Source: Marilutibacter spongiae
GTDB lineage: Bacteria > Pseudomonadota > Gammaproteobacteria > Xanthomonadales > Xanthomonadaceae
Assembly: GCF_014145325.1 (NCBI RefSeq)
Contig: NZ_JACHTF010000020.1
Location: 1 to 64,000 of the forward strand
Reading direction: 5' to 3'
Length of the DNA: 64,000 nt
Shown here: piece after piece, positions 3,480-50,088 of the stretch
Layout of the letters: every line of letters starts with the position of its first letter
Position numbering within the stretch: position 1 is the stretch's first letter
Position numbers and translations under genes: made by a program
Notes under the pieces: model-generated
Seen by the model: the letters and a program-made list of their open reading frames with translations, nothing else
Databases searched by the model: none
Told to the model about the DNA's origin: nothing

Positions 3480-3914
3480 GGGCTTGCGATTCTTCGGTGG
3501 CCGTTTGAACCGCTCGCGCGGCTCCTTCCAGGTGGCCGGCGCAACTCGCGTCGCCTGAGCACATGTGAGCTTTCCGTCGCAATCATCGACGGGACGCCAG
3601 GTCAGCGCGTATAGGTTCGGACAAAGCAAACCGCCTTGCCGGGTTAGCAGCAACAATCCGTAGTGACGCAGTTCCTTTAGGGCATTGCAGATGGTTTCCG
3701 GCGAAGTCCACCCGCGCGGCCTCAGCACCGATAGCGCCGCGCACAGGTCCCCATTGTTTCGCCCGTTGTACTGGCGTGCCAGGTCGCACAGCAGCTTGAT
3801 TCCAGTTCCACTGCACTGCCTCCAGTTGGCGCAGTCCTGCACAGCGTGGGGGATCGCTGTGAACGTGCCGGATTCCCTGCGCCCTTTGTGATTCAAGCGG
3901 CTACGCGGCTTCAT
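3417..3914 (-). CDS. Putative replication-initiation or DNA-binding protein of the small element
   Basis: 165 aa from the ATG at 3914; an upstream in-frame start at 3968 would overlap the previous gene more deeply. Residues about 20-110 contain FTAIPHAVQDCANW, KLLCDLARQYNGRNNGDL and ETICNALKELRHYGLLLLT, which look like a winged-helix DNA-binding domain of the kind found in replication initiators of satellites and plasmids. The tail is very basic. The iteron-like palindromes overlap its 3' end. The Rep assignment rests on this context and the fold pattern; no full family match is claimed. Confidence 0.45.
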   Translation of the reverse strand: MKPRSRLNHKGRRESGTFTAIPHAVQDCANWRQCSGTGIKLLCDLARQYNGRNNGDLCAALSVLRPRGWTSPETICNALKELRHYGLLLLTRQGGLLCPNLYALTWRPVDDCDGKLTCAQATRVAPATWKEPRERFKRPPKNRKPTTPPVSDSYAIRNDEGKKAA

Positions 3915-4260
3915 CTTGATCGCCCCGCTGGTTTGCGAAGGGCCAGTACGTTGCCGGCCTTTGGACATACACGCTGCCGTTGCCCTTCTTGGCTACTGAG
4001 TTAGCAGTCGAGCCGTCGGCGGGCCTAACTCTATTGCGGCCGGCAAGGTCAAGCGTTTCCATCGTCCAGCATCTAGCCGCGTTACGATGCCAACCGCGCT
4101 CCGTCATCTCGGCCTCGGTCAGGCATCGCCGATTGCCTTGCCATTGGCCCGGCGCGGCATAGTCGCCCGTGCGGTGGCGGTCAAAGGCCCGTTCGCGGCT
4201 GAAGTATTCGCCGCAGGCGCGGCACAGGCACGCGCGGCCGGCCAGGTTGGGGGCGTTCAA
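3901..4260 (-). CDS. Small zinc-finger phage-type protein
   Basis: The likely start is the TTG at 4260, which overlaps the TGA of the upstream gene; that gives 119 aa. The N-terminus has C-x-C-x2-C-GEYFSRERAFDRH followed by a second basic stretch, a C2H2-like finger seen in many small phage and element proteins with the phrase FDRHRTGDYA. The rest is polar with TEAEMTERGW. The role is unknown, DNA binding possible. The stop overlaps the start of the Rep-like gene, suggesting translational coupling. Confidence 0.55.
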   Translation of the reverse strand: MNAPNLAGRACLCRACGEYFSRERAFDRHRTGDYAAPGQWQGNRRCLTEAEMTERGWHRNAARCWTMETLDLAGRNRVRPADGSTANSVAKKGNGSVYVQRPATYWPFANQRGDQDEAA

Positions 4261-4559
4261 GCCCCACCGCCTCGCCCGCCCTTTAGGGCCTGGCAAAACT
4301 CGCCGTGCAGGTAGCAAGCCGCCGTGTCCAGCAAGTCGGCTGCATCGACCGTGCCCGGCTCGGGGTAGTCGGTACCGGCCGCCACCAATGCGAGCATCCG
4401 GCGGGCCACCTCGACGGCCAGCGCTGCCATTTCGTGCAGACACGCATTGCACGGGGTATGCTCGCAGCCGCAGGGGCTGTCAGCCTTTGCACCTGCCCCC
4501 TGATTCCCGTCGGTCGCCAAACTTGCCGGGGTCAGGGGGTTCTCGTTGGGGTGGCTCAT
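4257..4559 (-). CDS. Hypothetical Cys-containing protein
   Basis: 100 aa from the ATG at 4559, which overlaps the AlpA stop (ATGA). The centre has CGCEHTPCNAC, four cysteines that could bind a metal, followed by an Ala-rich helical segment. No family is recognised. Its position between AlpA and the zinc-finger gene, with overlapping stops and starts on both sides, makes translation as part of the same mRNA very likely. Confidence 0.55.
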   Translation of the reverse strand: MSHPNENPLTPASLATDGNQGAGAKADSPCGCEHTPCNACLHEMAALAVEVARRMLALVAAGTDYPEPGTVDAADLLDTAACYLHGEFCQALKGGRGGGA

Positions 4560-4795
4560 GCGACCGCCTTTGCATCGCGTTCGGCAATGCGACGCGCGGC
4601 CCATTCAACAATTTCGCGCTCCACCCACGCGCTTGCACGTTCACCTAGCTTCACGGGTGCGGGAAAGTCACCGGACCGCACCCGACGGTAAATCTCACTA
4701 CGCGAAAGCCCTGTACTAGCTTGTACCTGTGGCAATCGCAGCAAGCCATAGACGGCATTCGCCGAGGTCGTTTGTCGCATGGTTGTACCCCTCAA
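4556..4795 (-). CDS. alpA: AlpA-family transcriptional regulator / excisionase-like protein
   Basis: 79 aa. The core LLRLPQVQASTGLSRSEIYRRVRSGDFPAPVKLGERASAWVE is split here only to describe it: a MerR-like HTH with the AlpA signature (LxxV-x3-G-x-SxxxIYRxxxxGxFPxPxxLG-x-R-xxxW). AlpA proteins activate integrase expression or act as excisionase in P4-like elements. It begins a run of overlapping minus-strand genes. About 100 bases upstream contain no gene and should hold the promoter. Confidence 0.85.
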   Translation of the reverse strand: MRGTTMRQTTSANAVYGLLRLPQVQASTGLSRSEIYRRVRSGDFPAPVKLGERASAWVEREIVEWAARRIAERDAKAVA

Positions 4796-4893
4796 ACATC
4801 ATTGGCCGGCGCCGGATGGTGCTGGCCGCTGCGGGATGCAGCAATGCACAAACTATTGATTTAGGATCTACTACGCGAGGAAAAGTTCAGACC

Positions 4894-5505
4894 TTACTTT
4901 TCCTCACTAGCGCTCGATACGTGCAGTCCTGTGAACCCACGCATCATCCGTAGAATGCTGTCTGCGTCCGGCTTACCGCCCATCTGGTTCGAAAGCTCTT
5001 CGGCGACTTCACTGCGGGTCATGCCTTCGCGCAGCATTCGGTCAAACTCCCACGTCAACCACACTTTTCGAAACCGCGACGCCGTTCGCTTGGCATAGTT
5101 CCCTGCCCCTTTTTTGGTCGGACCGAAGAAAGCCTCCTCCAGACTCATCTTCCCTCTCGCACCCACGTAACGCTTCCAGACTTCGAATAATCCGAAAAGC
5201 AGCTCGGGCGGGGGATAGAAGCCCATGTCAACGTAGTAGAACAGCGTGGAAAGTGGCGAGTCTGACGTCTTGCACTCCGAACCGCGTTTCATGATCGGCT
5301 TTCCGTGAATGCTGTACTGCTCGTTAAGCTCATCCCAAGCTTCATTGAACGAGTCTGCAACCGGATAATCTCCGCCTCGAACGTCCTCTAGGTAGCGATA
5401 CCACGCTTCCACTTCCTCCCATTGGGCGTCGAGATCTAAAGCCTCACCACGCGCCATTGCCTCCACATTTTTAAAGGCTCTATCTAGCAGACCCTTGTTA
5501 CTCAT
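4894..5505 (-). CDS. Hypothetical protein of the small element
   Basis: 203 aa, hydrophilic, mainly helical by composition, without signal peptide or membrane segment. It contains a Tyr/Pro-rich stretch (LFYYVDMGFYPPPELLFGLFEVW) and a late segment EGMTRSEVAEELSNQMGG that could be a small HTH. Family not recognised. It sits between integrase and AlpA on the same strand. Confidence 0.6.
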   Translation of the reverse strand: MSNKGLLDRAFKNVEAMARGEALDLDAQWEEVEAWYRYLEDVRGGDYPVADSFNEAWDELNEQYSIHGKPIMKRGSECKTSDSPLSTLFYYVDMGFYPPPELLFGLFEVWKRYVGARGKMSLEEAFFGPTKKGAGNYAKRTASRFRKVWLTWEFDRMLREGMTRSEVAEELSNQMGGKPDADSILRMMRGFTGLHVSSASEEK

Positions 5506-5595
5506 TGCGCCCCCTCACTCACCATGCAGAATAGCCGCGCCATGCGACAGCGGTATCTGACTTTTCGCCCCGTCGGACTCGGCGCTACAAATCAA

Positions 5596-6816
5596 TCAAT
5601 TGGCCTTGCGCTTTATCGGAATGATCATGGCCCCCACCCGCAGGCCATCCAGGAAATCGGCCCACGCCTGCATCATCTTCCGGCGCTCGCTCAGGTACTG
5701 CGCGCGGTTGTAGGCGGCGCGGACCTTGTTTCGCTCAGCATGGGCCAACTGGCGCTCGATCACGTCCGGCGACCAGCCCATTTCATTCAGGTGGGTAGAC
5801 GCCATCGCGCGGAAGCCGTGCGCGGTCATGGTGTCTTTGTCGTAGCCGAGCCGGCGCAGGGCTGCGTTGATCGTGTTTTCGCTCATCGGCCGGTTAGGCG
5901 TTCGCAGGCTCGGAAAAACATAGCGCCCGCGTCCGGTCAGTGGCTCCAGTTCGCCCAGGATCGCCAGCGCATGCGACGACAGCGGCACGATATGCGCCTC
6001 GCGCATCTTCATCCTGCCGGCCGGGATGCGCCATTCCGCACCGTCCAGGTCCAGCTCGGCCCATTCCATCGCCCGTAACTCGCCGGGGCGCACGAACAAC
6101 AGCGGTGCCAGCCGCAGGGCACATCGGGTCGCCAACTGGCCGGTATAGCCGTCCATTGCTCGCAGCAGGTCGCCCATCTGCGCCGGGTCGGTGATCGCAG
6201 CGCGCGAGCGGGTCACCACCGGGGCCAGCGCCCCGCGCAGGTCTGCGGACGGGTCGCGCGTCGCGGCACCGTGGGCGACGGCATAGCGGAACACCTGCCC
6301 GGCCCGTTGCTTGGCTCGGTGTGCGGATTCGTGGGCACCTCGGGCTTCGATCCGTTTCAGGGTCGCCAGCAGTTCGGGGGCGTCAATCTCGGCAATGGGG
6401 CGCGCGCCCAGCCACGGGAACAGATCATTCTCGAAGCACGCCAGCGCCTTGGCGTATGTCGCCGTCGCCATGCCTCGCTTCTGGCCGGCCAACCACTCGC
6501 GGGCGATGGCTTCAAAGCTGTTGGCCGCTGCGACCCTCTCAGCTCGCTTGCGCGCCTTCTTGATCGCAGCAGGGTCGCCGCCGTCACGGATCACGGTCCG
6601 CGCCTCATCGCGGCGCTTGCGGGCCTCGGCCAGCGATACCTCGGGCCACGCACCGAAGGACAGCAGCTTCTCGCGCCCCGCGTGGCGGTACTTCATTCGC
6701 CACAGGCGTGAGCCGCTGTCCGTGGACAGCAGGAACAGTCCCCCACCATCGAACAACTTGCCAGACTTGGCCGCCTTGATCGCCGCCGCCGTCAGCTTGC
6801 CGGTGTTCGCTGCCAT
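5596..6816 (-). CDS. int: P4-type tyrosine integrase (DUF4102 N-terminus)
   Basis: 406 aa, the usual length for P4-like integrases. The N-terminal DUF4102 arm-binding domain covers about residues 5-85 (LTAAAIKAAK, LWRMKYRHAGREKLLSFGAWP). A core-binding domain follows, then the catalytic domain: first Arg in VRPGELRAMEW, HGFR box, HAERN and the tyrosine in VRAAYNRAQY. All catalytic residues are present, so it should be active. It is the first gene inside the att copy at 6986, the normal position for an integrase acting on a tRNA site. Confidence 0.93.
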   Translation of the reverse strand: MAANTGKLTAAAIKAAKSGKLFDGGGLFLLSTDSGSRLWRMKYRHAGREKLLSFGAWPEVSLAEARKRRDEARTVIRDGGDPAAIKKARKRAERVAAANSFEAIAREWLAGQKRGMATATYAKALACFENDLFPWLGARPIAEIDAPELLATLKRIEARGAHESAHRAKQRAGQVFRYAVAHGAATRDPSADLRGALAPVVTRSRAAITDPAQMGDLLRAMDGYTGQLATRCALRLAPLLFVRPGELRAMEWAELDLDGAEWRIPAGRMKMREAHIVPLSSHALAILGELEPLTGRGRYVFPSLRTPNRPMSENTINAALRRLGYDKDTMTAHGFRAMASTHLNEMGWSPDVIERQLAHAERNKVRAAYNRAQYLSERRKMMQAWADFLDGLRVGAMIIPIKRKAN

Positions 6817-6917
6817 GCCCTACGCCCCTCTCGATACCCCCACAGGGGGCCGGATACCCCCAACGGTACCCCCGCGACTGCAGGGCTGCAATGGGACGCC
6901 TTGGAACGTCAGGCAAC

Positions 6918-6943
6918 AAAAAACCCCGCGTTTGCGGGGCTTT
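6918..6943 (-). terminator. Rho-independent terminator at the right end of the small element
   Basis: A CCCCGC/GCGGGG stem with a four-base loop is followed, reading leftwards, by six T. It lies about 45 bases from the att copy, the same relative position and nearly the same sequence as the chromosomal terminator at 1518. When only the small element was present it would have replaced the terminator of tRNA-Thr. Confidence 0.8.
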
Positions 6944-6985
6944 CGTGATGATTTCGGGTTGTCTTGGGACTTGCTGAAACCGTCA

Positions 6986-7003
6986 ATTGGTGCCGGAGAT
7001 AGG
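6986..7003. repeat. Middle att copy between the two elements
   Basis: An 18-base perfect copy of the tRNA-Thr 3' end (ATTGGTGCCGGAGATAGG). To its left is the small element, to its right the prophage integrase. The first nine bases recur in inverted orientation at 7011-7019, making an imperfect palindrome around the left prophage end. Confidence 0.85.
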
Positions 7004-7106
7004 CGTCTTCGGCACCAATCTCGTTGCGCGCAATTCGGTCCTGTTCGCTTGAAAAGCCCGTCAATTATGGCTTTCAGGTCTCGAGCAAGGTTCCCGTCCC
7101 GCCCCA

Positions 7107-7148
7107 TTTGGCCCCGTTGCGGTATCCTGCGGCCCCACGTTTGGCCCC
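7107..7148 (+). repeat. Two direct copies of TTTGGCCCC before the integrase
   Basis: TTTGGCCCC occurs at 7107-7115 and 7140-7148, 33 bases (about three helical turns) apart, between the att core and the integrase start. Such short direct repeats next to a core are candidates for arm-type integrase sites. Nothing else supports this. Confidence 0.3.
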
Positions 7149-7157
7149 ACGGACCGT

Positions 7158-8120
7158 ATGGCGAGCATCGTCCCGTACCGCAATGGCTGGCGCGTCCAGA
7201 TCAAGAACCGGCACGGCCGGGATTCTGCCACGTTCAGGACGAAGCGCGAGGCGGCCCAGTGGGCCTTGCAGCGCGAGGCGGAGATTTCGGGGACCAAGGT
7301 GCCAGACAAATCCCTGGCAGAGGCCCTGGACCGATACAAGCGCGAGGTGAGCCCCGAGCACAAGGGGGCTCGCTGGGAAGCCCTCCGATTGGATTCCCTG
7401 TCCCGGCATCCCATTGCCCGCACGCCAGTGGCCGAGCTGGTCGGGCCGGACGTCGCCGAATGGCGGGACGACAGGCTTAGGGAAGTCGCTCCGGCTACTG
7501 TCGCCCGAGAGATGACGCTGCTCCGATCGGTGCTCGAGGTCTGCAGGCGCGACTGGGGCTGGATCCGCACGAACCCAATGACCGATGTCAGGCGCCCTCG
7601 ATCGCCGCCAAGCCGAAAGCGTCGGATCACGCCGGAAGAGGTGGAGCGAGTTGCTATTGCCTGCGACCTGGTCGACGGCGACAACGCAGAGACCGCCCTT
7701 CAACGTACCGGTTTGGCGTTCCTTTTCGCCCTGGAGACCGCAATGCGCGCCGGCGAGATCCTCAGGCTACGCTGGGAGGACATTGGGAACAAGTCGGTAA
7801 CGCTGTCAGAGACAAAGAATGGCGATGCTAGGCGAGTTCCGTTGTCGCCAAGGGCTCGCGAGATCGTCGCGGCACTACCGCAAGTCGCTGAGACGGCCTT
7901 CAATCTTCACCCTGGCACCCGGGATGCATTGTGGCGAAAGGCCGTCCAAGCTACCAAAATCGAAGATCTTCACTTCCACGACTCCAGGGCCGAGGCGATC
8001 TGGCGCCTGTCCAAGAAACTGGACGTTATGGAGCTGGCAAGGGTCATCGGCCATCGCGACTTGAAAAGTCTCATGATTTATTATCAAGCAGACGCCGACG
8101 AGTTGGCTGACCGCCTTTAG
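7158..8120 (+). CDS. int: Prophage tyrosine-recombinase integrase
   Basis: 320 aa. The N-terminal strand pattern MASIVPYRNGWRVQI and RTKREAAQWALQRE is a typical arm/AP2-like start. The core-binding region follows, then the catalytic Arg in METAMRAGEILRLRW (seen as AMRAGEI), HDSR box, GHRDLKSLM and the nucleophile region MIYYQAD. It reads away from the att copy at 6986 and shares no obvious close relation with the P4-type enzyme of the neighbouring element, yet uses the same core. Excision would need the small HTH protein at 49710. Confidence 0.92.
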   Translation: MASIVPYRNGWRVQIKNRHGRDSATFRTKREAAQWALQREAEISGTKVPDKSLAEALDRYKREVSPEHKGARWEALRLDSLSRHPIARTPVAELVGPDVAEWRDDRLREVAPATVAREMTLLRSVLEVCRRDWGWIRTNPMTDVRRPRSPPSRKRRITPEEVERVAIACDLVDGDNAETALQRTGLAFLFALETAMRAGEILRLRWEDIGNKSVTLSETKNGDARRVPLSPRAREIVAALPQVAETAFNLHPGTRDALWRKAVQATKIEDLHFHDSRAEAIWRLSKKLDVMELARVIGHRDLKSLMIYYQADADELADRL

Positions 8121-8226
8121 AGGCGACTGCAACCCACACCTACTCACTAGATTCAAAGGCCCAAATCTGGCCAATGAAGCATTCTCTCACCGCAGCGAAA
8201 TGTACGAGATACCAGACTAAATACAA

Positions 8227-10281
8227 CTAAGCGTCGGCTTCAAGTCTGTGCAAGAACTTCTCTAGCCTACCCTTCGCTTCATCCCTCGATTGATAATAGC
8301 TCTCGTACGCCGCACGTGCGCTCAAAATGAGGCTCTCGTAAGTCAGCACTCGAGCCCCCAAGGCCTCAAGAGAATCAAGTTCCTTACCGTCTAGATGAGA
8401 GCGATCAGAACATACAAAGTATATTGAAACAACTGCGGACGCGCCCCCGCCATCCATCCACTCGCTATGTTGCCGAACGTACTCCTCCACAGCACGCCTA
8501 TAACGATTACATTGGTCAAAAATTTTTCCGAATGGTACTCGAACGCCGGGCCTCTTTAACTCAACGACGACATGTCTTCCTGACTGCGTTCTGTAAGCAA
8601 TATCCAACCTTGCACCATCCTTAGTGTCCGGGCAGCTCTTCTTCAGGTACTCTGAGAGCCGAACCTCCTTCTTTTGTGTGCCCTGGATACGATCCCACGT
8701 AGGATCAAGAAGCCACAGATGATCCAGCAGGTAGCCCTGCACTACACCTTCAAGTTCTGACGAATTAATCTTTGTCTCAAAGGCCTGGATTACCTCAAGC
8801 CTTTGATGACTTATCTCATGAAAGTAACTCTCCTCTACAGCATCGAGGGTTGCAAATATAGCCTGAAACTCTGGAGAAAAAACATCTTCAACTCCGTTAA
8901 GCTGATCCAAGGCATTCTTTACCCTGAGCTTCTCAAAGGCTACCATGGTGCTGCGATACAACATTGATCTAGCGCGTCGGTTTCTCGCACCATCGTTATA
9001 GAACTGGACTTTCTCAATAGATCGAATCAGTTTTCTGGCCAACTTCTTGTCAGCCGTTCTTTCTATACTGTCGATCCACTCTCCGATGACATCGGAGTCA
9101 GCACCAGCCTCTTCTCCGCCCACCTCGGATCGCCAAAGATCCCATTGATCACGGATCTCGGAAAGAGTCGCTATTAGATGCGATCTAATAGCAATGTAGA
9201 CGGGGTCATACTGGATAACAGATTCTCGTGCAGATGTCGCCCTATCGACATCATCCGAATCTAAGAAATCTGCATGTATCTCGCCGACGATGTAGCTGTT
9301 GAAGTAGCGCGTGTCACCAACGTCCGCGAGCATGTCCTCTTGCCAGAGTCTTCCATTGGCGAAGAGTGACACCTGATTGATACTCTCTCCCTCCGAACCA
9401 AGCTTACTAGGAACATCTACCGTACCGATGAACCCACGAACCCTAACAGCTCTTCCTTCAATATCGATAACATTCGAAATCTTTTTTGCAGCTACTTTGC
9501 CATTGAGGGATTCGGGTTTGGCTAAGGGCGCGCGAAGCGCCACCGCCTCATTCAAAGCATCTTCGTCGAAGTACCAAATAAACTGGAGGTCTCGATGAAC
9601 GCCTGCATCCGCCCGAGTAACCTCATGATCTCCCAGAAAAACTCTGAAGTTATGTTGAGGCCCGATGATTCCGAAACGACGTGCTAGGCGAGGTATGAGA
9701 TAGCTCGCGCTTCGCTCCACAGAGCGATTCAGCTGCTCAAGCTCGATTCTGGTGCCATGGCCTTTCGGCAGGGCTACGGGCTCTGCAAGCATCCGAGGAA
9801 GATATAGAGCGTTCGCTCGCGACCGCGCCTCGAGCTCATCCACGTCGATCTCAAATCCTATAGGCTCCATACCAGAGACTTGGGTAGTAACTCGAACCTT
9901 ACCAGCGATAGAGAACATTGCCAGCTTGCCGATACCCTTGCGCCCCATTACGCGGCGCTTGTTGTTATCGGACATGTTCGACCCTACGAACTCGCGCCTA
10001 CTATAACCAACACTTAGGAATCGAGACTGGAGAGCGGATCGATCCATTCCGTGACCATCATCTGTCACAGTTAATCGACCATCCTCAGAGTTCACTTCTA
10101 CCTTTACAGTCTCCGCTTCCGCGTCCCAGCTATTTGCAACCAGTTCGGTTAGCACGGAAGGTGCACTCGCATAGAGCTTCATTCCGAGGTGGTGCAAGAC
10201 GTTGAGATGCACCTCGAAACGCAATGGTTCTTCAACATCCTCGCTTGTTTGGGTGATTTCGCCGACATCAATGGAGGTCAC
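8227..10281 (-). CDS. GHKL (MutL/MORC-like) ATPase fused to PD-(D/E)XK nuclease, restriction component
   Basis: 684 aa. The N-terminus is a Bergerat-fold ATPase: N-box ELVANSWDA (E46, N50, D53), G1 box DDGHGMD (75-80), G2 box GRKGIGKLAMF (113-123), with the GT of G3 in GHGTRIEL. A long helical region follows. The C-terminus is a nuclease: D560 in RLDIAY, E574-x-K576 in VVVELKRPG and a QCNRY motif near 590 (QxxxY), the RecB/Cas4-like pattern. It starts 15 bases after the stop of a C5 methyltransferase gene on the same strand. This matches the predicted R-M family with MutL-like ATPases linked to the origin of MORC proteins (Iyer, Abhiman and Aravind). Its DNA is richer in A/T than the phage genes, suggesting separate acquisition. 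Confidence 0.8.
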   Translation of the reverse strand: MTSIDVGEITQTSEDVEEPLRFEVHLNVLHHLGMKLYASAPSVLTELVANSWDAEAETVKVEVNSEDGRLTVTDDGHGMDRSALQSRFLSVGYSRREFVGSNMSDNNKRRVMGRKGIGKLAMFSIAGKVRVTTQVSGMEPIGFEIDVDELEARSRANALYLPRMLAEPVALPKGHGTRIELEQLNRSVERSASYLIPRLARRFGIIGPQHNFRVFLGDHEVTRADAGVHRDLQFIWYFDEDALNEAVALRAPLAKPESLNGKVAAKKISNVIDIEGRAVRVRGFIGTVDVPSKLGSEGESINQVSLFANGRLWQEDMLADVGDTRYFNSYIVGEIHADFLDSDDVDRATSARESVIQYDPVYIAIRSHLIATLSEIRDQWDLWRSEVGGEEAGADSDVIGEWIDSIERTADKKLARKLIRSIEKVQFYNDGARNRRARSMLYRSTMVAFEKLRVKNALDQLNGVEDVFSPEFQAIFATLDAVEESYFHEISHQRLEVIQAFETKINSSELEGVVQGYLLDHLWLLDPTWDRIQGTQKKEVRLSEYLKKSCPDTKDGARLDIAYRTQSGRHVVVELKRPGVRVPFGKIFDQCNRYRRAVEEYVRQHSEWMDGGGASAVVSIYFVCSDRSHLDGKELDSLEALGARVLTYESLILSARAAYESYYQSRDEAKGRLEKFLHRLEADA

Positions 10282-10296
10282 ATCGCTTCTCCTTCC

Positions 10297-11331
10297 TTAG
10301 GACTTGAGGTGTTTCACCAGATGTCGTCCGACTGCCGCACCCAAGGGCGGAGGGACGGCGTTCCCGATATGTTTCCCCACGGTCATAAAGTCTATGGAGC
10401 CATCGGAGCCAAAGAATTTGTAGTCGCAAGGAAATCCCTGCAAAAGTGCAGCCTCACGCAGTGTGATTGCCCGATCCTGGACTGGATGTCCAAAACGGCC
10501 GGTGCCAAAATTGTATGACTGGGTTGTGATAGTCGGCGCGGGCTCGTCCCAAGCCATACGCGCATAGACGCTACGGAATGTCGAACCCGTGGACTTCCTG
10601 TGACACGCTGATCGCAAATCAAGTGGCCAGTCATGCCATGTGCCACCTGGTCTCGACGCCTTGATGCGCTTCATGTTCAATGGCGAAAGTGAGCGGGCTT
10701 TGTGAAGCGGATCTGTCGGGTGCTGCTCGCCTGCCCCAATCGCTGGCAATTCCCCAATCACTTGGCGTACGGTCAATGTGCCTGCGGAGCTGTCAGGCAG
10801 GGGATCCAGCTCTCCTATGGCTGACGCAATGAGGACGAGCCTGCGGCGACGTTGCGCAAGTCCAAACCGAGGCCCGTAGCAGAGCCTCTCTTGCACACTA
10901 AACCCATTGCTCAAGAGCCTCTCGACAAAACGCTTGAAGACAGCAGTTCTTCGCAGGCCTGCAACATTCTCCATCGTGACAAAATCTGGCCGCACCTCTT
11001 CAATAAGTCTGGAAAACTCATCTAACAGGCTCCACTTGGCATCTTGCGATGTGTCAAGGCCCCGCATATGTGTCGAGAATGGCTGACATGGAGCGCAACC
11101 TGCCATGAGCTTGAGGCCGTGTTCTGGAAAGAGCGCGGCCAACTCTTTACCACAAACGTCACGAATGTCTCGCGCGTGGAATGGGGCCTTGATATTGGCC
11201 TCATAGGCAGCCCGACAGCTCTCGTCGAAGTCGTAACCGGCAACCACACTTACACCAGCATTGTTCAAGCCGAGCGACAGACCTCCAACTCCGCAGAACA
11301 GGTCGACCGCATAAATTCTGTGCTTTTTCAT
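10297..11331 (-). CDS. DNA (cytosine-5) methyltransferase
   Basis: 344 aa with all main C5-MTase motifs in order: I DLFCGVGGLSLG (10-21), IV GCAPCQPFS with catalytic C82, VI MENVAGL (120-126), VIII FGLAQRRRRLVLIAS, IX REAALLQGFP, X GKHIGNAVPPPLG. The region between VIII and IX would contain the target recognition domain. It transfers methyl from S-adenosylmethionine to cytosine C5 and should protect the lysogen's DNA against the adjacent ATPase-nuclease. It is upstream of the nuclease in the same operon, which lets methylation start first. Recognition sequence unknown. Confidence 0.93.
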   Translation of the reverse strand: MKKHRIYAVDLFCGVGGLSLGLNNAGVSVVAGYDFDESCRAAYEANIKAPFHARDIRDVCGKELAALFPEHGLKLMAGCAPCQPFSTHMRGLDTSQDAKWSLLDEFSRLIEEVRPDFVTMENVAGLRRTAVFKRFVERLLSNGFSVQERLCYGPRFGLAQRRRRLVLIASAIGELDPLPDSSAGTLTVRQVIGELPAIGAGEQHPTDPLHKARSLSPLNMKRIKASRPGGTWHDWPLDLRSACHRKSTGSTFRSVYARMAWDEPAPTITTQSYNFGTGRFGHPVQDRAITLREAALLQGFPCDYKFFGSDGSIDFMTVGKHIGNAVPPPLGAAVGRHLVKHLKS

Positions 11332-11425
11332 ACGCTCAGTTTATCCCCAGCGAGCTCAGCCGTCGACCGCGAGGCAACCTAGGCGGAGGAGGTAGCGCCA
11401 AGTGCCAGCGCCATCGCAAGCAACT

Positions 11426-11442
11426 GAATTCATTGCGAATTC
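11426..11442. promoter_or_regulatory. Spaced double GAATTC repeat between divergent cargo genes
   Basis: GAATTC-N5-GAATTC lies in the 249-base gap between the methyltransferase (leftward) and the SRAP gene (rightward). Each half is itself a palindrome, so the whole is symmetrical. It could be an operator for the R-M operon. No clear LexA box (CTGT-N8-ACAG) was found in this gap. The call rests only on position and symmetry. Confidence 0.3.
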
Positions 11443-11580
11443 TTTGACGCCACCACCCGCCTTTCACTGCTCACCGCGCTTGAATCCTACCTCAAAGTGA
11501 GCGCGCTTAGCGGCTCAGTTGAAGATTTCAGCGTTTGCTCAATGTTGACTGCGCGCCTCGGAGGCTACAGCCTTGCCCGC

Positions 11581-12510
11581 ATGTGCTACTCCGCCCTGGT
11601 CAAAGCAGAGTTCACCCGCTTCGTGCGCGAGTACGGAGCCATCATGGACATCGAGACCTATGTGAAGACGTACTGGGGCGACGATGGCCGGCCGGTGGGT
11701 CGGCGGCCCAAGGTCCCGCGCGCCGCGGAGCGCGACATCCTCGAGCACGGGCCACCCGAGGTGGCCGAGCTCATCCGCCAGTGGGATGCCGCTGAGGTCA
11801 ACGACCTGACCCAGGAACTCTTCAATCAACGCAAGCGTGTCGCCGATGGCGAACGGGCCCTGCAGGCCAAGGCCACGAAGAAGGCCGCTGAGGACGTGCG
11901 GATCGGCACTAACAAGGTGAAGGCGGCCCGGCGCCGGCTGGACACGATCGCCGGGAAGGCGTCAGAGCAGGACCACCGGATCTACCCCGGGGTCTACTGC
12001 CCGGTACTGGTGATCGAGGACGGGAAGCGCCACGTGAAGCTGATGCGTTACCAGTGCCGGCCGGCGGGCAAGCCCTCCGTCTACGACCGGAAGTACCCGG
12101 GCACCTACAACGCCAGGCGGGACAACCTCGAGGGCTTCTGGAAGGACCAGTTCGGCTACAGCCACGGGATCATGGTCGCCGACCGGTTCTACGAGAACGT
12201 CGAGGGGCCGGATGGCACCAACCAGGTCCTCGAGTTCGAGCCGCGCACCGGCGAGCCGATGCTGGTGGCCTGCCTGTGGTCCCACTGGACCGACCCCCTG
12301 GGCAAGGAGCCGGACCTGCTGTCGTTCGCGGCGATCACAGACGAGCCCGAGCCGGAGGTCGCTGCGGCCGGCCACGACCGCACGATCATCAACATCAAGC
12401 CCGAGCACCTGGACGCCTGGCTGCAGCCGGACCCGGCCGACCTCGCCGCGCTGTATGCGATCTTCGACGACAAGCGACACCCCTACTACGAGCACCGATT
12501 GGCTGCGTAG
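11581..12510 (+). CDS. SRAP-domain protein (YedK/HMCES family) with a long insertion
   Basis: The start is set at the ATG of MCYSALV because SRAP proteins need Cys2 exposed as the new N-terminus; an upstream in-frame start would hide it. The product is 309 aa. Active-site residues visible: C2, N177 in YNARRDN, E205 in DRFYENV and H265 in GHDRTIINI. SRAP proteins form thiazolidine crosslinks with abasic sites in single-stranded DNA. Between Cys2 and the Asn lies an extra stretch of roughly 100 residues with a charged, Lys/Ala-rich helical segment, absent from E. coli YedK (about 220 aa). It reads into the HEPN-like gene 26 bases downstream. Confidence 0.8.
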   Translation: MCYSALVKAEFTRFVREYGAIMDIETYVKTYWGDDGRPVGRRPKVPRAAERDILEHGPPEVAELIRQWDAAEVNDLTQELFNQRKRVADGERALQAKATKKAAEDVRIGTNKVKAARRRLDTIAGKASEQDHRIYPGVYCPVLVIEDGKRHVKLMRYQCRPAGKPSVYDRKYPGTYNARRDNLEGFWKDQFGYSHGIMVADRFYENVEGPDGTNQVLEFEPRTGEPMLVACLWSHWTDPLGKEPDLLSFAAITDEPEPEVAAAGHDRTIINIKPEHLDAWLQPDPADLAALYAIFDDKRHPYYEHRLAA

Positions 12511-12536
12511 GGAGCGCCGCATGAAGGAGCTCGTGC

Positions 12537-13229
12537 ATGACCACCACTGACTTGCCAAGATTCCCGCGGGCCATTTTCGACGACCAAGGAAACTACACCG
12601 TCAGGACCTATGGCCGATTCCACGTTCGTTCCACCCTGGTCGCGCGCTTCGCAGCACTGACAGATATAAGACGAGACCTAGAACGGGCTCACGAAATTCT
12701 GGACGCCTGCAGACAGATGGACGACGACGCACCGGATTTCGTTGAAGAGAGCCTGTGGAACTCGGCAATCATCACCTACGGTCGTGCTGTTGGAGTCGGG
12801 CACGCAAGGACTCCGGGCTTTGACGCTCGCAGCTACATCGCAGCAGAACTAGACGATGAGAGGCTTAGGGTTCACAAGTACGTTCTGACGCTTCGCGACA
12901 AGATGGTCGCGCACGACGACGGCGTTGGGAGGGCAAAGAGTCTTTGGATGTTCCTAACCCCCACACCGCCCAAAGATCCCGTCATGTTTGGCATCAGTGG
13001 AGGGAACGCGCGAGTAATCTCGCTGGGCACAGACATTGCCGACTTTCTTGCACCCCACTTCAAGTGGATGGCTTCACACTTCTCTGAGTTGGCAGAGACG
13101 GCGCGCTACGAAATCCAGGCTGAGCTCATTCGCACCCATTTCGTTGGTGTCGAGCTCCTAGGGCCCTACGAAGAAGAAGAGATAGACATCACGATCGACG
13201 CACTAGTAGGGGCCACCGGAGGCGGGTGA
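12537..13229 (+). CDS. HEPN-like protein, possible abortive-infection RNase
   Basis: 230 aa, no signal peptide or membrane segment. The only recognisable feature is LRDKMVAHDD with R120 and H126, an Rx5H motif in the sequence setting (R-D-K-x-x-A-H) seen in AbiU2-like HEPN proteins. The surrounding segments are helical. HEPN domains with this motif are often metal-independent RNases of toxin-antitoxin or phage-defence systems. The family assignment is tentative. It follows the SRAP gene closely and is likely co-transcribed. Confidence 0.45.
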   Translation: MTTTDLPRFPRAIFDDQGNYTVRTYGRFHVRSTLVARFAALTDIRRDLERAHEILDACRQMDDDAPDFVEESLWNSAIITYGRAVGVGHARTPGFDARSYIAAELDDERLRVHKYVLTLRDKMVAHDDGVGRAKSLWMFLTPTPPKDPVMFGISGGNARVISLGTDIADFLAPHFKWMASHFSELAETARYEIQAELIRTHFVGVELLGPYEEEEIDITIDALVGATGGG

Positions 13230-13261
13230 GCCAACAGCAGCGTCCTCACCCCAAGGCCGGC

Positions 13262-13531
13262 TCAATCATTCGTCTGGAGGTCGTGGGCGATGCCCTGGGC
13301 GTCCAGCATCTCGACCAGCCGGCCGTTGACCGGCAACCAGTGCACGGCGTGGAGGTCGCCGGCGGCGTCCATCCTGACAGCGTCCTCGACGATCTCGTCG
13401 GCGATGCCAGCGAAGGCGCTCCAGAAGTCGCCCTCCTCCGGGTACTCGGCAATCAGGGCGGGGAGCTGGGCCTCGAGAGCGTCGCAGCGGGCCTGCAGCT
13501 CGTCCTCCGTGACGCAGCGGTCTGTGCTCAT
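13262..13531 (-). CDS. Hypothetical acidic protein
   Basis: 89 aa, strongly acidic, helical N-terminus (ELQARCDALEAQLPALI) and a later HWLPVNGRLVEMLDAQGI segment. No family recognised. Its start overlaps the stop of the upstream gene by four bases (ATGA), so the two are probably translated together. It converges with the HEPN-like gene. Confidence 0.55.
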   Translation of the reverse strand: MSTDRCVTEDELQARCDALEAQLPALIAEYPEEGDFWSAFAGIADEIVEDAVRMDAAGDLHAVHWLPVNGRLVEMLDAQGIAHDLQTND

Positions 13532-13824
13532 GGGGTGAGTTTACGCCCGCGCGGGACCGGGCGCGCCTGTGCCGCAGCCTCCGCCCTGAGGCGCGCCTCG
13601 TGGCGCCTGGCCCACGCTTCGATGCCGGCGGTGCCGGTGGCCTTGCTTTGGCAGCGCCGCGTCACCAGCGGCCTGTCCATGCCCCAGTGGGCATTGAGCC
13701 GCGCGAGCCAGCCTCCATCCACGCGCTCGAGCAGCATGGCAACCTGGACATCGCCCAGCACGACGGCGGTGCCCTCTTCGTCGTACTGGCTGCGCTTCGT
13801 CCACTTGAATCCGTCGGGGAGCAT
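13528..13824 (-). CDS. Hypothetical protein, phage cargo region
   Basis: 98 aa. The first 50 residues look like a compact beta domain (FKWTKRSQYDEEG, VVLGDVQVAMLLERVDGGWLARLNAHW); the rest is Arg/Ala-rich. Similar small proteins seem to recur in Xanthomonadaceae prophages, from memory, but no function is known. It is coupled to the 13262 gene. Confidence 0.55.
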   Translation of the reverse strand: MLPDGFKWTKRSQYDEEGTAVVLGDVQVAMLLERVDGGWLARLNAHWGMDRPLVTRRCQSKATGTAGIEAWARRHEARLRAEAAAQARPVPRGRKLTP

Positions 13825-13832
13825 GGTGCGAT

Positions 13833-14612
13833 CTAGCAGTCTTTCAGCTCAGTGGCCTTCACACCTTTAATGACTTCCTGAACTAAAGAATGGTCCAGGA
13901 GCTCGACCCCGATGAACTCTTGCAGCTCACGAGAAAGATCAATGGAAAGCTCGGCAAAGAGTATGGCTTGCTTGACCACAAGCATCAGCTTTCGGTATTG
14001 GAAAGGGTCAAGCTCCACGCCCTTGGCAAGACCCAACGAGACGCAGAGGCCCATTCCCTCACCTGCTATGGCGCCGAGCTGTCGACGATAAGCGAACAAG
14101 GTTGCAAGATCTGGGCCTAAAGCAGCAGGAAGATAGTGCACGCTGTCCAGAACAGTCTCAACGGTCCTCATAGGAATCTCTCTGAGCTCCTTCATAGACT
14201 CATGGACTGCGGCAGCGTCCAATAAGGTTCGACGTTCCTTCCAAACTACGTTCATAACCAGCGTTTGGATGGGTCTTTGCACTCGCGGAGCCAGCTCGCC
14301 GACTTCAACGTGGACAAGTCGCGCTATTACCATGCCCTTTGCAGCGCTTTCCCTTCGCCGAAACTCAAAATCTTCCCGGGCGATTGCCTTCGCACTATTG
14401 GCTATATCAGTCGCCCGTCTCGACGTCCACCAAGCTAAAACTCCGACCACCAGCGTACCCAATCCCGAAACCCACGTTCCCAAGGTTCCCCAATCTACTG
14501 TTAGTCCACCGAATTGACGGCCGCCGGAAAGGAAGTAGACGGCGACTATGCCCATCACACCTATCGCCGCAATTAGCAGCCATCGACGGGACGTGCGTTG
14601 ATTTCCTGACAC
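13833..14612 (-). CDS. Hypothetical membrane protein with two N-terminal TM helices
   Basis: 259 aa. Two hydrophobic segments (about residues 11-29 and 45-62: LLIAAIGVMGIVAVYFL and a WVSGLGTLVVGVLAWW stretch) place the long helical C-terminal part in the cytoplasm. Such 2TM plus helical-domain proteins are common in phage cargo and defence regions, but no catalytic motif is visible. It is the last gene before the tail-fibre genes and does not look like a structural protein. Confidence 0.6.
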   Translation of the reverse strand: MSGNQRTSRRWLLIAAIGVMGIVAVYFLSGGRQFGGLTVDWGTLGTWVSGLGTLVVGVLAWWTSRRATDIANSAKAIAREDFEFRRRESAAKGMVIARLVHVEVGELAPRVQRPIQTLVMNVVWKERRTLLDAAAVHESMKELREIPMRTVETVLDSVHYLPAALGPDLATLFAYRRQLGAIAGEGMGLCVSLGLAKGVELDPFQYRKLMLVVKQAILFAELSIDLSRELQEFIGVELLDHSLVQEVIKGVKATELKDC

Positions 14613-14765
14613 CGGCCATCGCTCCAGGCTAAGAGTTGTGAAAAGAGTAGCAGCACCAAGCGCATCACTGATCTTTCACCCTGCGGTGGCGGGTTAGGTG
14701 TTGGCGCACCGGGCCTGGGGCACTGCGGAGACTCGAGCCAGGCAGCGTCTCGGCAGCGGCATTGG

Positions 14766-15545
14766 CTAGGCGGCCGCGGCCAGGTCCTCGATCTCGGTGG
14801 AGGTGAGCGGTCCGTCTTTGAACAGCGCGCATTCGTCGACCGAACCAATGACCTGGTAGAAGGCCGTGAGCGCTGCGCCGAATCGTGCCGCGCCCCACCA
14901 GGAGGGCTTGGCGTAGTAATTGAGGGTCGGCTCGCCCGTCGACTCGACAATCTTCACGCCATTGACCCACAGCTCGAGCTTGCCGGCCGGCAGCTTGTTC
15001 AGGACGATCACCAGCTTGGAGCCGTAGGGCCAGGTGACGGCCCCGGTGCTGGCGATCTGGCCCACGCCCGAGCTGTACATGGCCAGCCGGAAAGTGGTCG
15101 CGGTGACGTGCACCAGTCGCAGCTCCGGGCACCCTGCCCCGTCGCCCACCAGTTGCATGATCACGCTGACATTGCTGTTTCCGGCGCCCGGCGCCGCGTC
15201 AGGCCGAACGATGCAGGTGCCGGCCCAGCCGGTCGCGCTGGTCAGGGTCTTCGCTGGCGAGGTGACGACTGCGCTGCCGGCGATCGCGAACGCCTTGTCG
15301 CTCGAGCCCGCGAGCAGGCCGGCCGCGCTCACGGTGTCGGTGTTCTTGGCCGACGTCGCCACGCCGTTGACGACCGAGAGCAGCGCGCCATTCGCCGGCG
15401 CCGCGGAGACGTCGACGACCGTGCTGTTGGCGGCGTTGTCGTTGCACCTCAGGTAGGTGACCGGCCCCAGGCTGGCCAGCAAGGTGGCGTAGTCGCCCCC
15501 CGCGCCTGCAGCGGCCGCTGCGCCCGCCACCACGCCGGGGATCAC
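14766..15545 (-). CDS. LamG/jelly-roll domain tail-fibre protein
   Basis: 259 aa from the GTG at 15545, which overlaps the TGA of the previous gene. A Gly/Ala-rich linker (residues 5-17) is followed by a concanavalin/LamG-like domain: YLRCNDNAANSTVVDVS, LVIVLNKLPAGKLELWVNGVK and the closing IGSVDECALFKDGPLTSTEIEDL, the hallmark end of LamG domains. It is probably the distal receptor-binding protein. A much longer open frame extends upstream but overlaps real genes and is a shadow. Confidence 0.7.
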   Translation of the reverse strand: MIPGVVAGAAAAAGAGGDYATLLASLGPVTYLRCNDNAANSTVVDVSAAPANGALLSVVNGVATSAKNTDTVSAAGLLAGSSDKAFAIAGSAVVTSPAKTLTSATGWAGTCIVRPDAAPGAGNSNVSVIMQLVGDGAGCPELRLVHVTATTFRLAMYSSGVGQIASTGAVTWPYGSKLVIVLNKLPAGKLELWVNGVKIVESTGEPTLNYYAKPSWWGAARFGAALTAFYQVIGSVDECALFKDGPLTSTEIEDLAAAA

Positions 15546-46117: not shown

Positions 46118-46321
46118 ATGAACGCACAGGACGAGTACACCGATCTGCGAGCTGCCGCCAAGCGCGGCGCCCGTATCCAAGCCTGGCACCTGAAGCCTGG
46201 CGCTGTCTCTTCGGCCCAGGGCCACTGGGTGACGCTGCTGTCCACCCCGGAGCCGGCCTTCAGCTGCCCGGCCCATCTGTACCGCGTGCACCCGAACGAC
46301 GTGGCGGAGGTGCCGGCATGA
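46118..46321 (+). CDS. Hypothetical 67-aa protein
   Basis: Starts at ATG 46118 after a GAGGTCACC leader. YTDLRAAAKRGARIQAWHL and WVTLLSTPEPAFSCPAHLYRV suggest a small beta domain of the kind found as repeats in other phage proteins. It overlaps the ParB-like gene by four bases. Confidence 0.5.
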   Translation: MNAQDEYTDLRAAAKRGARIQAWHLKPGAVSSAQGHWVTLLSTPEPAFSCPAHLYRVHPNDVAEVPA

Positions 46322-48276
46322 ACGCCGTCGCTCCGCTCGCGCGCCCCGAAGCGGCGTCACTGCAGCGCATCGCGCTGGCCCACCTGCAGTTGTCACCGCT
46401 CAATGCCCGCAAGACCCAGGGCGAAGGCGTCGAGAACCTGGCCGCCAGCATCGAGGCGCACGGCCTGCTGCAGAACCTCACGGTCCTGCCGACCGATGAA
46501 GCGGGCACCTTCGAGGTGATCGCCGGCGGCCGCCGCCTCGCGGCCCTGCAGCTGCTCGACGCCCAGGGTCGCCTGCCGGCGACGCTGCGGGAGATCTCCT
46601 GCCTGGTGGTCGACGACGCCGACATCGCCGTGGAGGCATCGACGGCGGAGAACACGCTGCGCGAGGCCATGCACCCGGCCGACGAGTTCGACGCGTTCCG
46701 CCGTATGATCGACGCCGGCAAGCCGATCCCGGACATCGCCGCCCACTTCGGCGTCGCCGACCGCGTCGTCCGCCAGCGGCTGAAGCTGGCCAACGTCAAT
46801 CCGGACCTGGTGCAGGTCTACCGCGACGGTAGGATGACGCTCGAGCAGCTGCAGGTGCTGGCGCTGACCGACAACCACGACCTGCAGAAGCAGGCTTGGG
46901 GCAAGAACCGCCAGGACTACGAGCGGAGCCCCTACCAGCTGCGCCAGTTCCTCACCCAGAGCGACGTGTCGGCAGACGAGGCCCTCGCGAAGTTCGTGGG
47001 GCTGGAGGCCTACGAGCAGGCCGGCGGAACCGTGCGCCGCGACCTCTTCAGCGATCGCGCCTGGTTGACCGACCGGGCCCTCTTGGACCAACTGGCCATG
47101 GATCGCCTCGAGCAGGCCGCACAGGCGCTGCGCGACGCGGGCTGGTCGTGGGTCGAGGCGCGCATCGACCTGGACTACGCGACACGTGCCGAGTTCCCGG
47201 CTGTCGATGATCGCGGGGTCGAACTCACACATGCGACGCCCGAAGACGCCTCGCGGGAGACCGAGATTGAGGCGCGCCTCCAAGCCCTGGACAAGGGTGA
47301 GAAGGATGACGGGGAGAACGAGTACTGGGACCTTCAGGAGGAGCTCGACGAGATCGCCGCGCGCAAACGCGAGATCTGGCCCGAGCGGATCATGGCGCAG
47401 GCAGGTGCGCTGGTCACGGTCGGTAGCGGCGGTGTCGCGATCACCTATGGCCGCCTGAAGCCCGGCGAGAAGCTGGGCAAGAGCGGCGCGGTCACCGGCG
47501 GGGCCGATCCGAGTGCGCCGGCCAAGCCGAAGGCACTGACGCTCAGCGCGGCCGTCCTGCGCAACCTCAGCGCCCATCGCAGCGAAGAGGCACGCCACCA
47601 CGTGAGCCGGGACCCCCAGCTCGCGCTGGCGCTGCTGGTCGACCGCTTCGCCTCGGACCTGGCCGGCAATTTCAGTCACGCGCGACTCCTCACCGCGACC
47701 GGGGGCCGGGGCGCCGATGCCGCGGCGATCGCGCCTGACAACTACAACGCGCTGCGTCCCAAGAGTGAGGCGGCGGAGGCCTGCCGCAAGAAGATGCCCC
47801 GCGCCAAGCGACTGACATGGCTGATCAAGCAACCGCAGCAGGACCTGCTCGACATGCTCGCCGACCTGGTCGCCCAGAGCTTCGATGGCATGACCGACCA
47901 CGAGCGTGGCCACGCCGGCGTCCAGGAGCTGCATGAGGCCATCGGCTTCGAGATGGCGGAGCGATGGAACCCCGGCTGCGACAACTTCGTGGCCCGCGTT
48001 CCGAAGCCCTACCTGCTGGCAGCGATCGCCGAGGCCAAGGGCAAGGACGTCGCCAAGTCGCTCGAGGGCCTGAAGAAGGGCGAGCTGGCGGCCGAGGCAG
48101 CCAAGCTGCTGGCTGGTACCGGCTGGCTGCCCAAGACGCTGCGCGGCCCGAGCTACGGCAACGCGGCGAAGGGCAAGGCCACCAAGAAGCCGACCAAGAA
48201 GGCCGCCAAAGCGCCCGCCAAGAAGCGCGCCGCGGCTGCCAAGCCCAAGGCCAAGAAGGCGAGCAAGGCCGCGTGA
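46318..48276 (+). CDS. ParB-like protein with histone-like Lys/Ala tail
   Basis: 652 aa. The N-terminal ParB/Srx domain has LSPLNARKTQGEGVENLAASIEAHGLLQNL (seen as LNARKTQ and HGLLQNLTV), then FEVIAGGRRLAAL, the CTPase-type GxxR box. An HTH follows (KPIPDIAAHFGVADRVVRQRLKL). The remaining 450 residues include a helical region and end in about 40 residues of Lys/Ala/Pro repeats (residues about 610-652) as in histone H1. Such plasmid-like ParB proteins occur in temperate phages without ParA. Here roles in transcription, DNA condensation or nuclease activity are all possible. Confidence 0.8.
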   Translation: MNAVAPLARPEAASLQRIALAHLQLSPLNARKTQGEGVENLAASIEAHGLLQNLTVLPTDEAGTFEVIAGGRRLAALQLLDAQGRLPATLREISCLVVDDADIAVEASTAENTLREAMHPADEFDAFRRMIDAGKPIPDIAAHFGVADRVVRQRLKLANVNPDLVQVYRDGRMTLEQLQVLALTDNHDLQKQAWGKNRQDYERSPYQLRQFLTQSDVSADEALAKFVGLEAYEQAGGTVRRDLFSDRAWLTDRALLDQLAMDRLEQAAQALRDAGWSWVEARIDLDYATRAEFPAVDDRGVELTHATPEDASRETEIEARLQALDKGEKDDGENEYWDLQEELDEIAARKREIWPERIMAQAGALVTVGSGGVAITYGRLKPGEKLGKSGAVTGGADPSAPAKPKALTLSAAVLRNLSAHRSEEARHHVSRDPQLALALLVDRFASDLAGNFSHARLLTATGGRGADAAAIAPDNYNALRPKSEAAEACRKKMPRAKRLTWLIKQPQQDLLDMLADLVAQSFDGMTDHERGHAGVQELHEAIGFEMAERWNPGCDNFVARVPKPYLLAAIAEAKGKDVAKSLEGLKKGELAAEAAKLLAGTGWLPKTLRGPSYGNAAKGKATKKPTKKAAKAPAKKRAAAAKPKAKKASKAA

Positions 48277-49709: not shown

Positions 49710-49961
49710 ATGTCTGAGCACGCAGCACCTGATGTCGTCGCAATCCTGGCGGCGATGGTCGAAGGCGAGCGTTGGCTATGCGCTGACGCAGCAGCGGCAT
49801 ACCTTGGCCAGATGCCGCGCAAGACGTTCTTGGAGTTCGCAGCGAAGCCTGGCTTCCCCGCGCCGGCGAGGATCGGCAAGCGGCGCGTGTGGAGGAAGTC
49901 GGAGCTGGACGACTGGGCGGAGAAGCTGCGAGCCCGCCAGCAGCGCGAGAAGGCCGCCTAG
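49710..49961 (+). CDS. xis: Excisionase-like HTH protein beside the right att site
   Basis: 83 aa. WLCADAAAAYLGQMPRKTFLEFAAKPGFPAP and RIGKRRVWRKSELDDWAEKL form a MerR/AlpA-type winged helix (HTH_17), the usual excisionase fold. It is the last gene before attR, 50 bases from the core. In the circular phage it lies just upstream of the integrase gene across attP, which supports an excision role. Confidence 0.75.
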   Translation: MSEHAAPDVVAILAAMVEGERWLCADAAAAYLGQMPRKTFLEFAAKPGFPAPARIGKRRVWRKSELDDWAEKLRARQQREKAA

Positions 49962-50010: not shown

Positions 50011-50030
50011 ATTGGTGCCGGAGATAGGAA
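50011..50030. repeat. Right att copy overlapping the tRNA-Thr 3' end
   Basis: ATTGGTGCCGGAGATAGGAA covers the T-arm end, acceptor strand and CCA of tRNA-Thr, plus two bases. It matches 6986-7003 over 18 bases and 1586-1604 with one deletion. The copy here keeps the tRNA intact. Confidence 0.9.
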
Positions 50031-50088
50031 TCGAACCTACGACCCCATCATTACGAATGACGTGCTCTACCAACTGAGCTACTCCGGC
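50013..50088 (-). tRNA. thrT: tRNA-Thr (anticodon CGT)
   Basis: A complete cloverleaf on the minus strand: acceptor GCCGGAG pairs with CTCCGGC, D-arm with AGCTCAGTTGGTAGAGC, anticodon loop TTCGTAA (CGT, reading ACG), T-arm GTTCGATTC and an encoded CCA. It is the integration site of both elements. After the insertions it lies next to prophage DNA on its 3' side. Confidence 0.97.

Follow-up and report, generated by a model that had tools for sequence, protein, structure and literature searches.

A methyltransferase gene and a BbrUII/HgiDII-family gene in tandem

We analyzed a 64,000-nucleotide stretch of the Marilutibacter spongiae genome (positions 1 to 64,000 of contig NZ_JACHTF010000020.1, assembly GCF_014145325.1; hereafter the window), which carries genes for a C5-cytosine DNA methyltransferase (M) and a restriction enzyme (R) within a prophage. 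A first-pass annotation, made from the letters of the window, had described the two genes as a methyltransferase 15 bases away from an ATPase-nuclease of lower G+C content than its surroundings. Both points held. The genes are intact, tandem open reading frames (ORFs) on the minus strand, with the methyltransferase gene first, and a 15-base gap lies between the stop of M at 10297 and the start of R at 10281. The pair and the two main parts of R are as follows.

10297 to 11331, minus strand: M, a C5-cytosine DNA methyltransferase of 344 amino acids, upstream gene of the pair (PF00145, NCBIfam dcm, PADLOC profiles)
8227 to 10281, minus strand: R, a BbrUII/HgiDII-family (paraMORC3-type) restriction enzyme of 684 amino acids with a GTG start (NF050001, PADLOC REase_II, phrog_6203)
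9808 to 10161, minus strand: GHKL ATPase core of R, residues 41-158, with E46, N50, D53, D74-G-x-G and GRKGIGKL at 113-120 (PF13589, conservation, Foldseek)
8227 to 8754, minus strand: PD-(D/E)XK-type nuclease half of R, about residues 510-684, with E511, D560, E574-x-K576, Q590 and Y594 (conservation, SduA_C in relatives, 8ti9 fold match)

M matched the C5 methylase family PF00145 (E = 1.8e-50) and the NCBIfam dcm superfamily (121.4 bits against a cut-off of 100.65), and it scored 286.3 and 267.5 bits with the PADLOC profiles DrmMII and MTase_II, respectively. Direct reading of the sequence showed that the GTG start of R is preceded by a purine-rich stretch resembling a ribosome-binding site. 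The G+C content was 0.502 for R and 0.554 for M, as compared with 0.664 for the SRAP gene adjoining the pair and 0.668 for the window.

R belongs to a known class. It matched the NCBIfam model NF050001, "BbrUII/HgiDII family restriction enzyme", with 702.9 bits against a cut-off of 550, and the match extended over residues 21-680 of R and positions 2-659 of the 659 in the model. All 50 members of the alignment built around R (A2, window included) matched NF050001 at E ≤ 1e-10. PADLOC scored R as REase_II (254.6 bits), while its best PHROG, phrog_6203, is of unknown function. R is a new copy of an already named family, and the pair adds no new kind of defence system. The earlier view of an under-described system has to be given up: NF050001 is a curated model, PADLOC has the REase_II profile, a relative is labelled ParaMORC3 in a phage record, and a GHKL-Shedu protein with a comparable layout was tested against phages in a paper of 2025.

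The first-pass annotation had also related the pair to restriction-modification families predicted by Iyer, Abhiman and Aravind, and here it was right. In Iyer et al. 2008 (PMC2292703), paraMORC3 is described as a GHKL domain, an S5 domain and a C-terminal RE-fold domain with an E-D-ExK signature, and the paraMORCs are said to lack the MORC-specific motif. R fits this description, with its GHKL motifs, S5 and a C-terminal RE-fold-type domain with E-D-ExK. Of the proposed "MutL/MORC-type" ATPase, the MORC side was borne out and the MutL side was not: the best MutL model, TIGR00585, reached 32 bits against a cut-off of 180 and covered residues 42-86 only. MutL identity was rejected for R.

ATPase and nuclease halves of R

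Residues 41-158 of R matched PF13589 (HATPase_c_3) above the cut-off (E = 1.7e-19). We then considered conservation across the family, keeping 158 of 173 enzyme rows under limits on length and score. Dropping L001, L095 and identical rows left 146 distinct members of the family, the window protein among them. E46, N50, D53, D74, G76, G78, G113, K115, G116, G118 and E511 were invariant in all 146, in agreement with the ATPase motifs first proposed (E46/N50/D53 and GRKGIGKL). Position 75, previously named as an ATPase residue for mutation, was a poorer choice than its neighbor: D75 is Asp in just 98 of the 146 and Asn in 43, whereas D74 is Asp in every one.

An AlphaFold model of R built from an alignment of 50 rows had a mean predicted local distance difference test score (pLDDT) of 79.5 and a predicted template modelling score (pTM) of 0.62. 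Among the 50 Foldseek matches shown out of 950, the model matched Hsp90 and chains of MORC2, MORC3 and MORC4 over about 400-490 columns. The MORC4 ATPase-CW structure 7k7t, a 390-residue chain, aligned over 414 columns, and 5ix2 (Morc3) was matched too; we assume that both chains contain an S5 domain. We take the Hsp90 and MORC fold matches to represent the ATPase-S5 part of R, so that the model appears to include the S5 domain of paraMORC3.

The residues of the nuclease half were kept in most members: D560 in 145 of the 146 family members, Y594 in 145, E574 in 144, Q590 in 133 and K576 in 133 (with Met in 12). The C-terminal half was modelled separately (mean pLDDT 74.6). Its fold matches were headed by the Shedu nuclease domain 8ti9 (E = 9e-3), followed by EcoO109I and FokI. 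Pfam SduA_C (PF14082, DUF4263) matched the C-terminal halves of 24 of 42 members at E ≤ 1, the best at 2.7e-6. The C-terminal half of R itself had no SduA_C match at E ≤ 1, its sole Pfam match being HSDR_N at 0.02, and a sequence profile of the nuclease half found no match in the PDB up to E = 10. With moderate confidence, and on weak matches, we judge that the nuclease half resembles Shedu SduA_C and classical restriction enzymes more than it does RecB. The PD-(D/E)XK motif of the original annotation (D560, E574-x-K576, Q590, Y594) is thus conserved, and its RecB likeness is better replaced by "Shedu-like PD-(D/E)XK", because Shedu heads the fold matches and SduA_C matches some relatives at E ≤ 1.

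Methyltransferase partners, recognition site and prophage setting

Of 80 genome loci, 56 had a C5-methyltransferase-like gene within 700 bases of the enzyme gene, as did 78 of 80 viral loci, a redundant set that includes the window's own copy (L095). Among the 146 distinct enzymes, the C5 gene was upstream on either strand in 87, downstream on the opposite strand in 29 and downstream on the same strand in 4. In 19 with 2500 bases or more of sequence to either side it was lacking, and 7 could not be judged.

In the partner methyltransferases, the recognition region (residues 169-286 of the window enzyme) had a conservation of 0.536 as compared with 0.483 for the rest of the protein, as calculated over 94 others with own copies excluded. 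The first 60 of 90 distinct enzymes with strong scores, the window's own copy among them, gave 0.555 and 0.484, and 20 C5 enzymes of these loci with weak scores gave 0.333 and 0.362. Since conservation in the recognition region of the partner methyltransferases equals or exceeds that elsewhere in the protein, we read them as sharing one recognition sequence. GTCGAC has been tied to M.HgiDII and M.BbrUII (PMC5867850, PMC5005818), and another M.HgiDII homologue is tabulated in PMC6329791. By analogy with these named methyltransferases, the specificity of the window pair is most likely GTCGAC.

Two copies of GTCGAC, at 11302-11307 and 11362-11367, have the methyltransferase start codon between them. 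The second is a weak lead from the locus comparison:

11362 to 11367, no strand: GTCGAC, 30 bases upstream of the start codon of M, which may serve in autoregulation

In a stretch from -100 to -30, counted from methyltransferase motif I and chosen after looking, GTCGAC occurred in 5 of 87 distinct loci. This is a borderline result, with at least five such loci reached in 1 of 300 shuffles and 43 of 1000 same-locus draws. Over a wider 280-base stretch before the methyltransferase genes, the excess was not significant (12 occurrences, 8.1 expected), ranking GTCGAC eleventh of 64 palindromes.

The gene pair sits between an integrase gene and a SRAP (SOS response associated peptidase) gene, inside a pair of direct repeats:

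6986 to 7003, no strand: left copy of an 18-bp direct repeat, putative attachment site attL (repeat search)
7158 to 8120, plus strand: tyrosine integrase of the prophage, adjoining the left repeat copy (PF00589; phrog_1)
11497 to 12510, plus strand: SRAP, next gene inward from the pair (PF02586; phrog_1599)
50011 to 50028, no strand: right repeat copy, putative attR, overlapping the 3' end of tRNA-Thr at 50013-50088 (repeat and tRNA)

The repeats frame 43 kb with integrase, tail, head, portal, terminase, primase and helicase genes and a CI-like repressor, as named by PHROG in a scan of 20 of the element's ORFs. One end of a 46,061-base IMG/VR provirus is identical to window positions 3901-15281, and the left end predicted for this provirus falls outside the repeat. 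The pair is cargo of the prophage, as initially supposed from the window alone, and lies at its integrase end.

Besides its own copy, the closest relatives of R were in Lysobacter concretionis (75% identity) and on a viral contig (64%). Of 161 pattern-matching stretches in IMG/VR, 116 encode a relative of R. An R match at E ≤ 1e-50 was present in just 3 of 149 Xanthomonadaceae genomes, own included, with two over the cut-off, which implies a sporadic, mobile distribution. Relatives of the integrase at E ≤ 1e-60 were found in 6 of the 149, own included. We compared the surroundings of related integrases in four other genomes and found no homologue of R or M within about 8 kb; a fifth neighborhood of 2735 bases, which ends at a contig end, was left out. 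Because those integrases are just 57-59% identical, they are weak evidence for a cargo slot and provide no empty site.

Several further features were observed. A third copy of the repeat, one base shorter, lies at 1583-1604, and a second integrase, presumably P4-type, is encoded at 5596-6816. Together they suggest a second element in tandem at the same tRNA-Thr, to which this integrase probably belongs. An 83-amino acid gene at 49710-49961, just inside the right repeat copy, is perhaps an excisionase; its homologues directly adjoin related integrases in three of four relatives (L190, L191, L192). A prophage protein of 652 amino acids (46318-48276) has ParB-like matches, and its best match is a PHROG of unknown function. 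Finally, a contig labelled uncultured Cenarchaeum sp. (OY282369.1) carries at least six R relatives (L042, L043, L056, L063, L081, L084), an unusual number.

Interpretation and comparison with known systems

We consider it likely that the pair forms a mobile restriction-modification system that is type II-like, belongs to the BbrUII/HgiDII family and travels as prophage cargo. In such a system, M would methylate both host and prophage DNA at a cytosine of its recognition site, for which GTCGAC is the likeliest sequence. R would bind ATP through its N-terminal GHKL-S5 module and would probably dimerise into a clamp on DNA. ATP binding by the module would gate a dimeric PD-(D/E)XK nuclease, and the C-terminal Shedu-like domain would cut unmethylated sites. 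Competing phages and plasmids would be excluded, and loss of the pair would be penalised. The nearest published test that we saw concerns VcSduA of Vibrio cholerae, for which the ATPase variant E27A and the nuclease variant K557A both lose defence against phages (PMC12137116, 2025). By analogy, R may likewise be gated by ATP.

Some relatives of R lie in a different setting. A DrmMI-like or DrmA-like ORF was present in the loci of 13 of the 146 enzymes, 11 of which form one set (local support 99). The enzyme stands directly between DrmMI and DrmA in L011/L175, L078, L080, L082, L083 and L092, although DrmMI is split into two overlapping ORFs in L080 and scores just 76 bits in L083. An extra ORF of about 630-750 amino acids separates the DrmMI match from the enzyme in L030, L055, L059 and L126. 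L057, the weakest case, also has the extra ORF; its next downstream gene is not DrmA-like, and a weak DrmA match follows 4.4 kb on. Both neighbors are present around a more distant relative, L013/L178. In genome G056 (L179, G056:C21:28500-48000), the order is DrmMI, enzyme (864 bits), DrmA, DrmB and DrmC, where DrmMI and DrmA were named by similarity to L082, whose own gene names come from PADLOC. On a Deinococcus plasmid, the enzyme adjoins a DrmMII-like gene, Vsr, DrmC and DrmB.

These and other observations weigh against assigning the window pair to a type II-like system with a GTCGAC site. One 11-member clade of the BbrUII/paraMORC3 family sits in DISARM-like operons, and 24 of the 80 genome loci lack a C5 gene within the 700-base range; in 21 of these, the sequence extends 1700 bases or more to either side. 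Because of the loci without a C5 gene and the DISARM-like clade, the family name guarantees neither type II behavior nor GTCGAC. In PMC5005818, a methyltransferase with 44% identity to M.BbrUII is paired with a predicted enzyme whose gene spans just 735 bases (318782-319516), so M.BbrUII-like methyltransferases need not come with the GHKL enzyme. The model of the nuclease half has intermediate confidence, and none of its 635 fold matches, headed by Shedu, EcoO109I and FokI, reaches E = 0.001. No sigma-70-like promoter was found in 8050-11550, where 2.4 would be expected by chance, although this is a weak test because only one promoter type was known to the scan. GTCGAC is also not avoided, occurring 64 times in the window (26.3 expected) and 3780 times in the genome (1896 for a reversed control word), both of which are neutral if the sites are methylated. 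A protected host need not avoid its site, and therefore non-avoidance neither helps nor hurts; we discarded avoidance as a specificity test, finding it uninformative in both window and genome.

Other readings of the pair can be weighed against the same evidence. R could be a Shedu-type defence nuclease whose GHKL domain senses a phage structure or DNA end, with no fixed cut sequence and a C5 enzyme that is protective or incidental. This would account for the SduA_C matches in relatives and the Shedu nuclease as top fold match, and VcSduA, which has a comparable layout, functions without mention of a methyltransferase in the text consulted. We nevertheless regard it as unlikely, given that R itself has no SduA_C match at E ≤ 1, is paired with a C5 gene like most relatives seen, and falls under a model named after restriction enzymes. 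Alternatively, the cargo could be degraded or silent, with M active and R inactive or unexpressed. The absence of a consensus sigma-70 promoter agrees with this, but both frames are open, the catalytic residues are intact and the promoter scan is weak, leaving silent cargo a decidedly improbable explanation.

A third candidate, a MutL-related enzyme of DNA repair resembling mismatch repair rather than defence, draws on the combination of GHKL ATPase and nuclease on one chain and on speculation about repair roles for some members outside restriction-modification settings in Iyer et al. (PMC2292703). Set against it are the MutL scores far below cut-off, the C5 partner, the prophage setting and the rarity of R among the family's genomes, and we give it almost no credence. 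A mobile restriction-modification pair remains our preferred reading.

It is possible, though we find it doubtful, that the GHKL-Shedu-like enzyme is one interchangeable ATP-gated cutting module that recurs in three or more contexts: paired with a C5 methyltransferase in restriction-modification, within DISARM-like operons alongside DrmMI and DrmA, and on its own in Shedu-like defence. The partner would then supply the mark that separates self from non-self, and the ATP-driven clamp would license cutting. If so, the window pair, with just two proteins, would offer the simplest form in which to test a MORC-type clamp.

Most type II restriction enzymes do not need ATP. Because this family carries a complete Hsp90/MORC-like ATPase, the two-gene system is a simple place to probe what an ATPase does in DNA cutting, and the answer bears on how prokaryotic MORC relatives act on DNA. 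The pair also bears on how prophages arm their hosts, since it is prophage-borne and has many copies on viral contigs. Its interest lies in the role of the ATPase and in the family's use across several defence settings.

Among known systems, DISARM (DrmMI, DrmMII, DrmA, DrmB, DrmC) shares with the window a methyltransferase that scores on the DrmMII profile, and some relatives of R lie inside such operons. Unlike these, the window pair has the integrase and SRAP genes as neighbors and no DrmA, DrmB or DrmC alongside. Among the open-access papers examined, we found none reporting an enzyme of the R family within DISARM; other systems associating a cytosine methyltransferase with the MORC family appear in PMC9523054. 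VcSduA is described as having a similar layout to R, a GHKL domain and then a Shedu-type nuclease. It differs in that its description mentions no C5 methyltransferase partner, and R in turn lacks an SduA_C match.

The closest likenesses are within the family. R matches BbrUII/HgiDII (NF050001) at full length above the cut-off and has the C5 methyltransferase partner; for the window copy, GTCGAC would be the probable site. With paraMORC3, for which Iyer et al. 2008 proposed DNA looping (PMC2292703), R shares the domain order and the restriction-modification neighbors, and we found no difference between them. The ParaMORC3 and Dcm genes of Escherichia phage PhiR44_1 are of the same family (38% identity), likewise phage-borne and with the C5 gene adjoining, but the methyltransferase is convergent and downstream there, whereas in the window it is upstream on the same strand.

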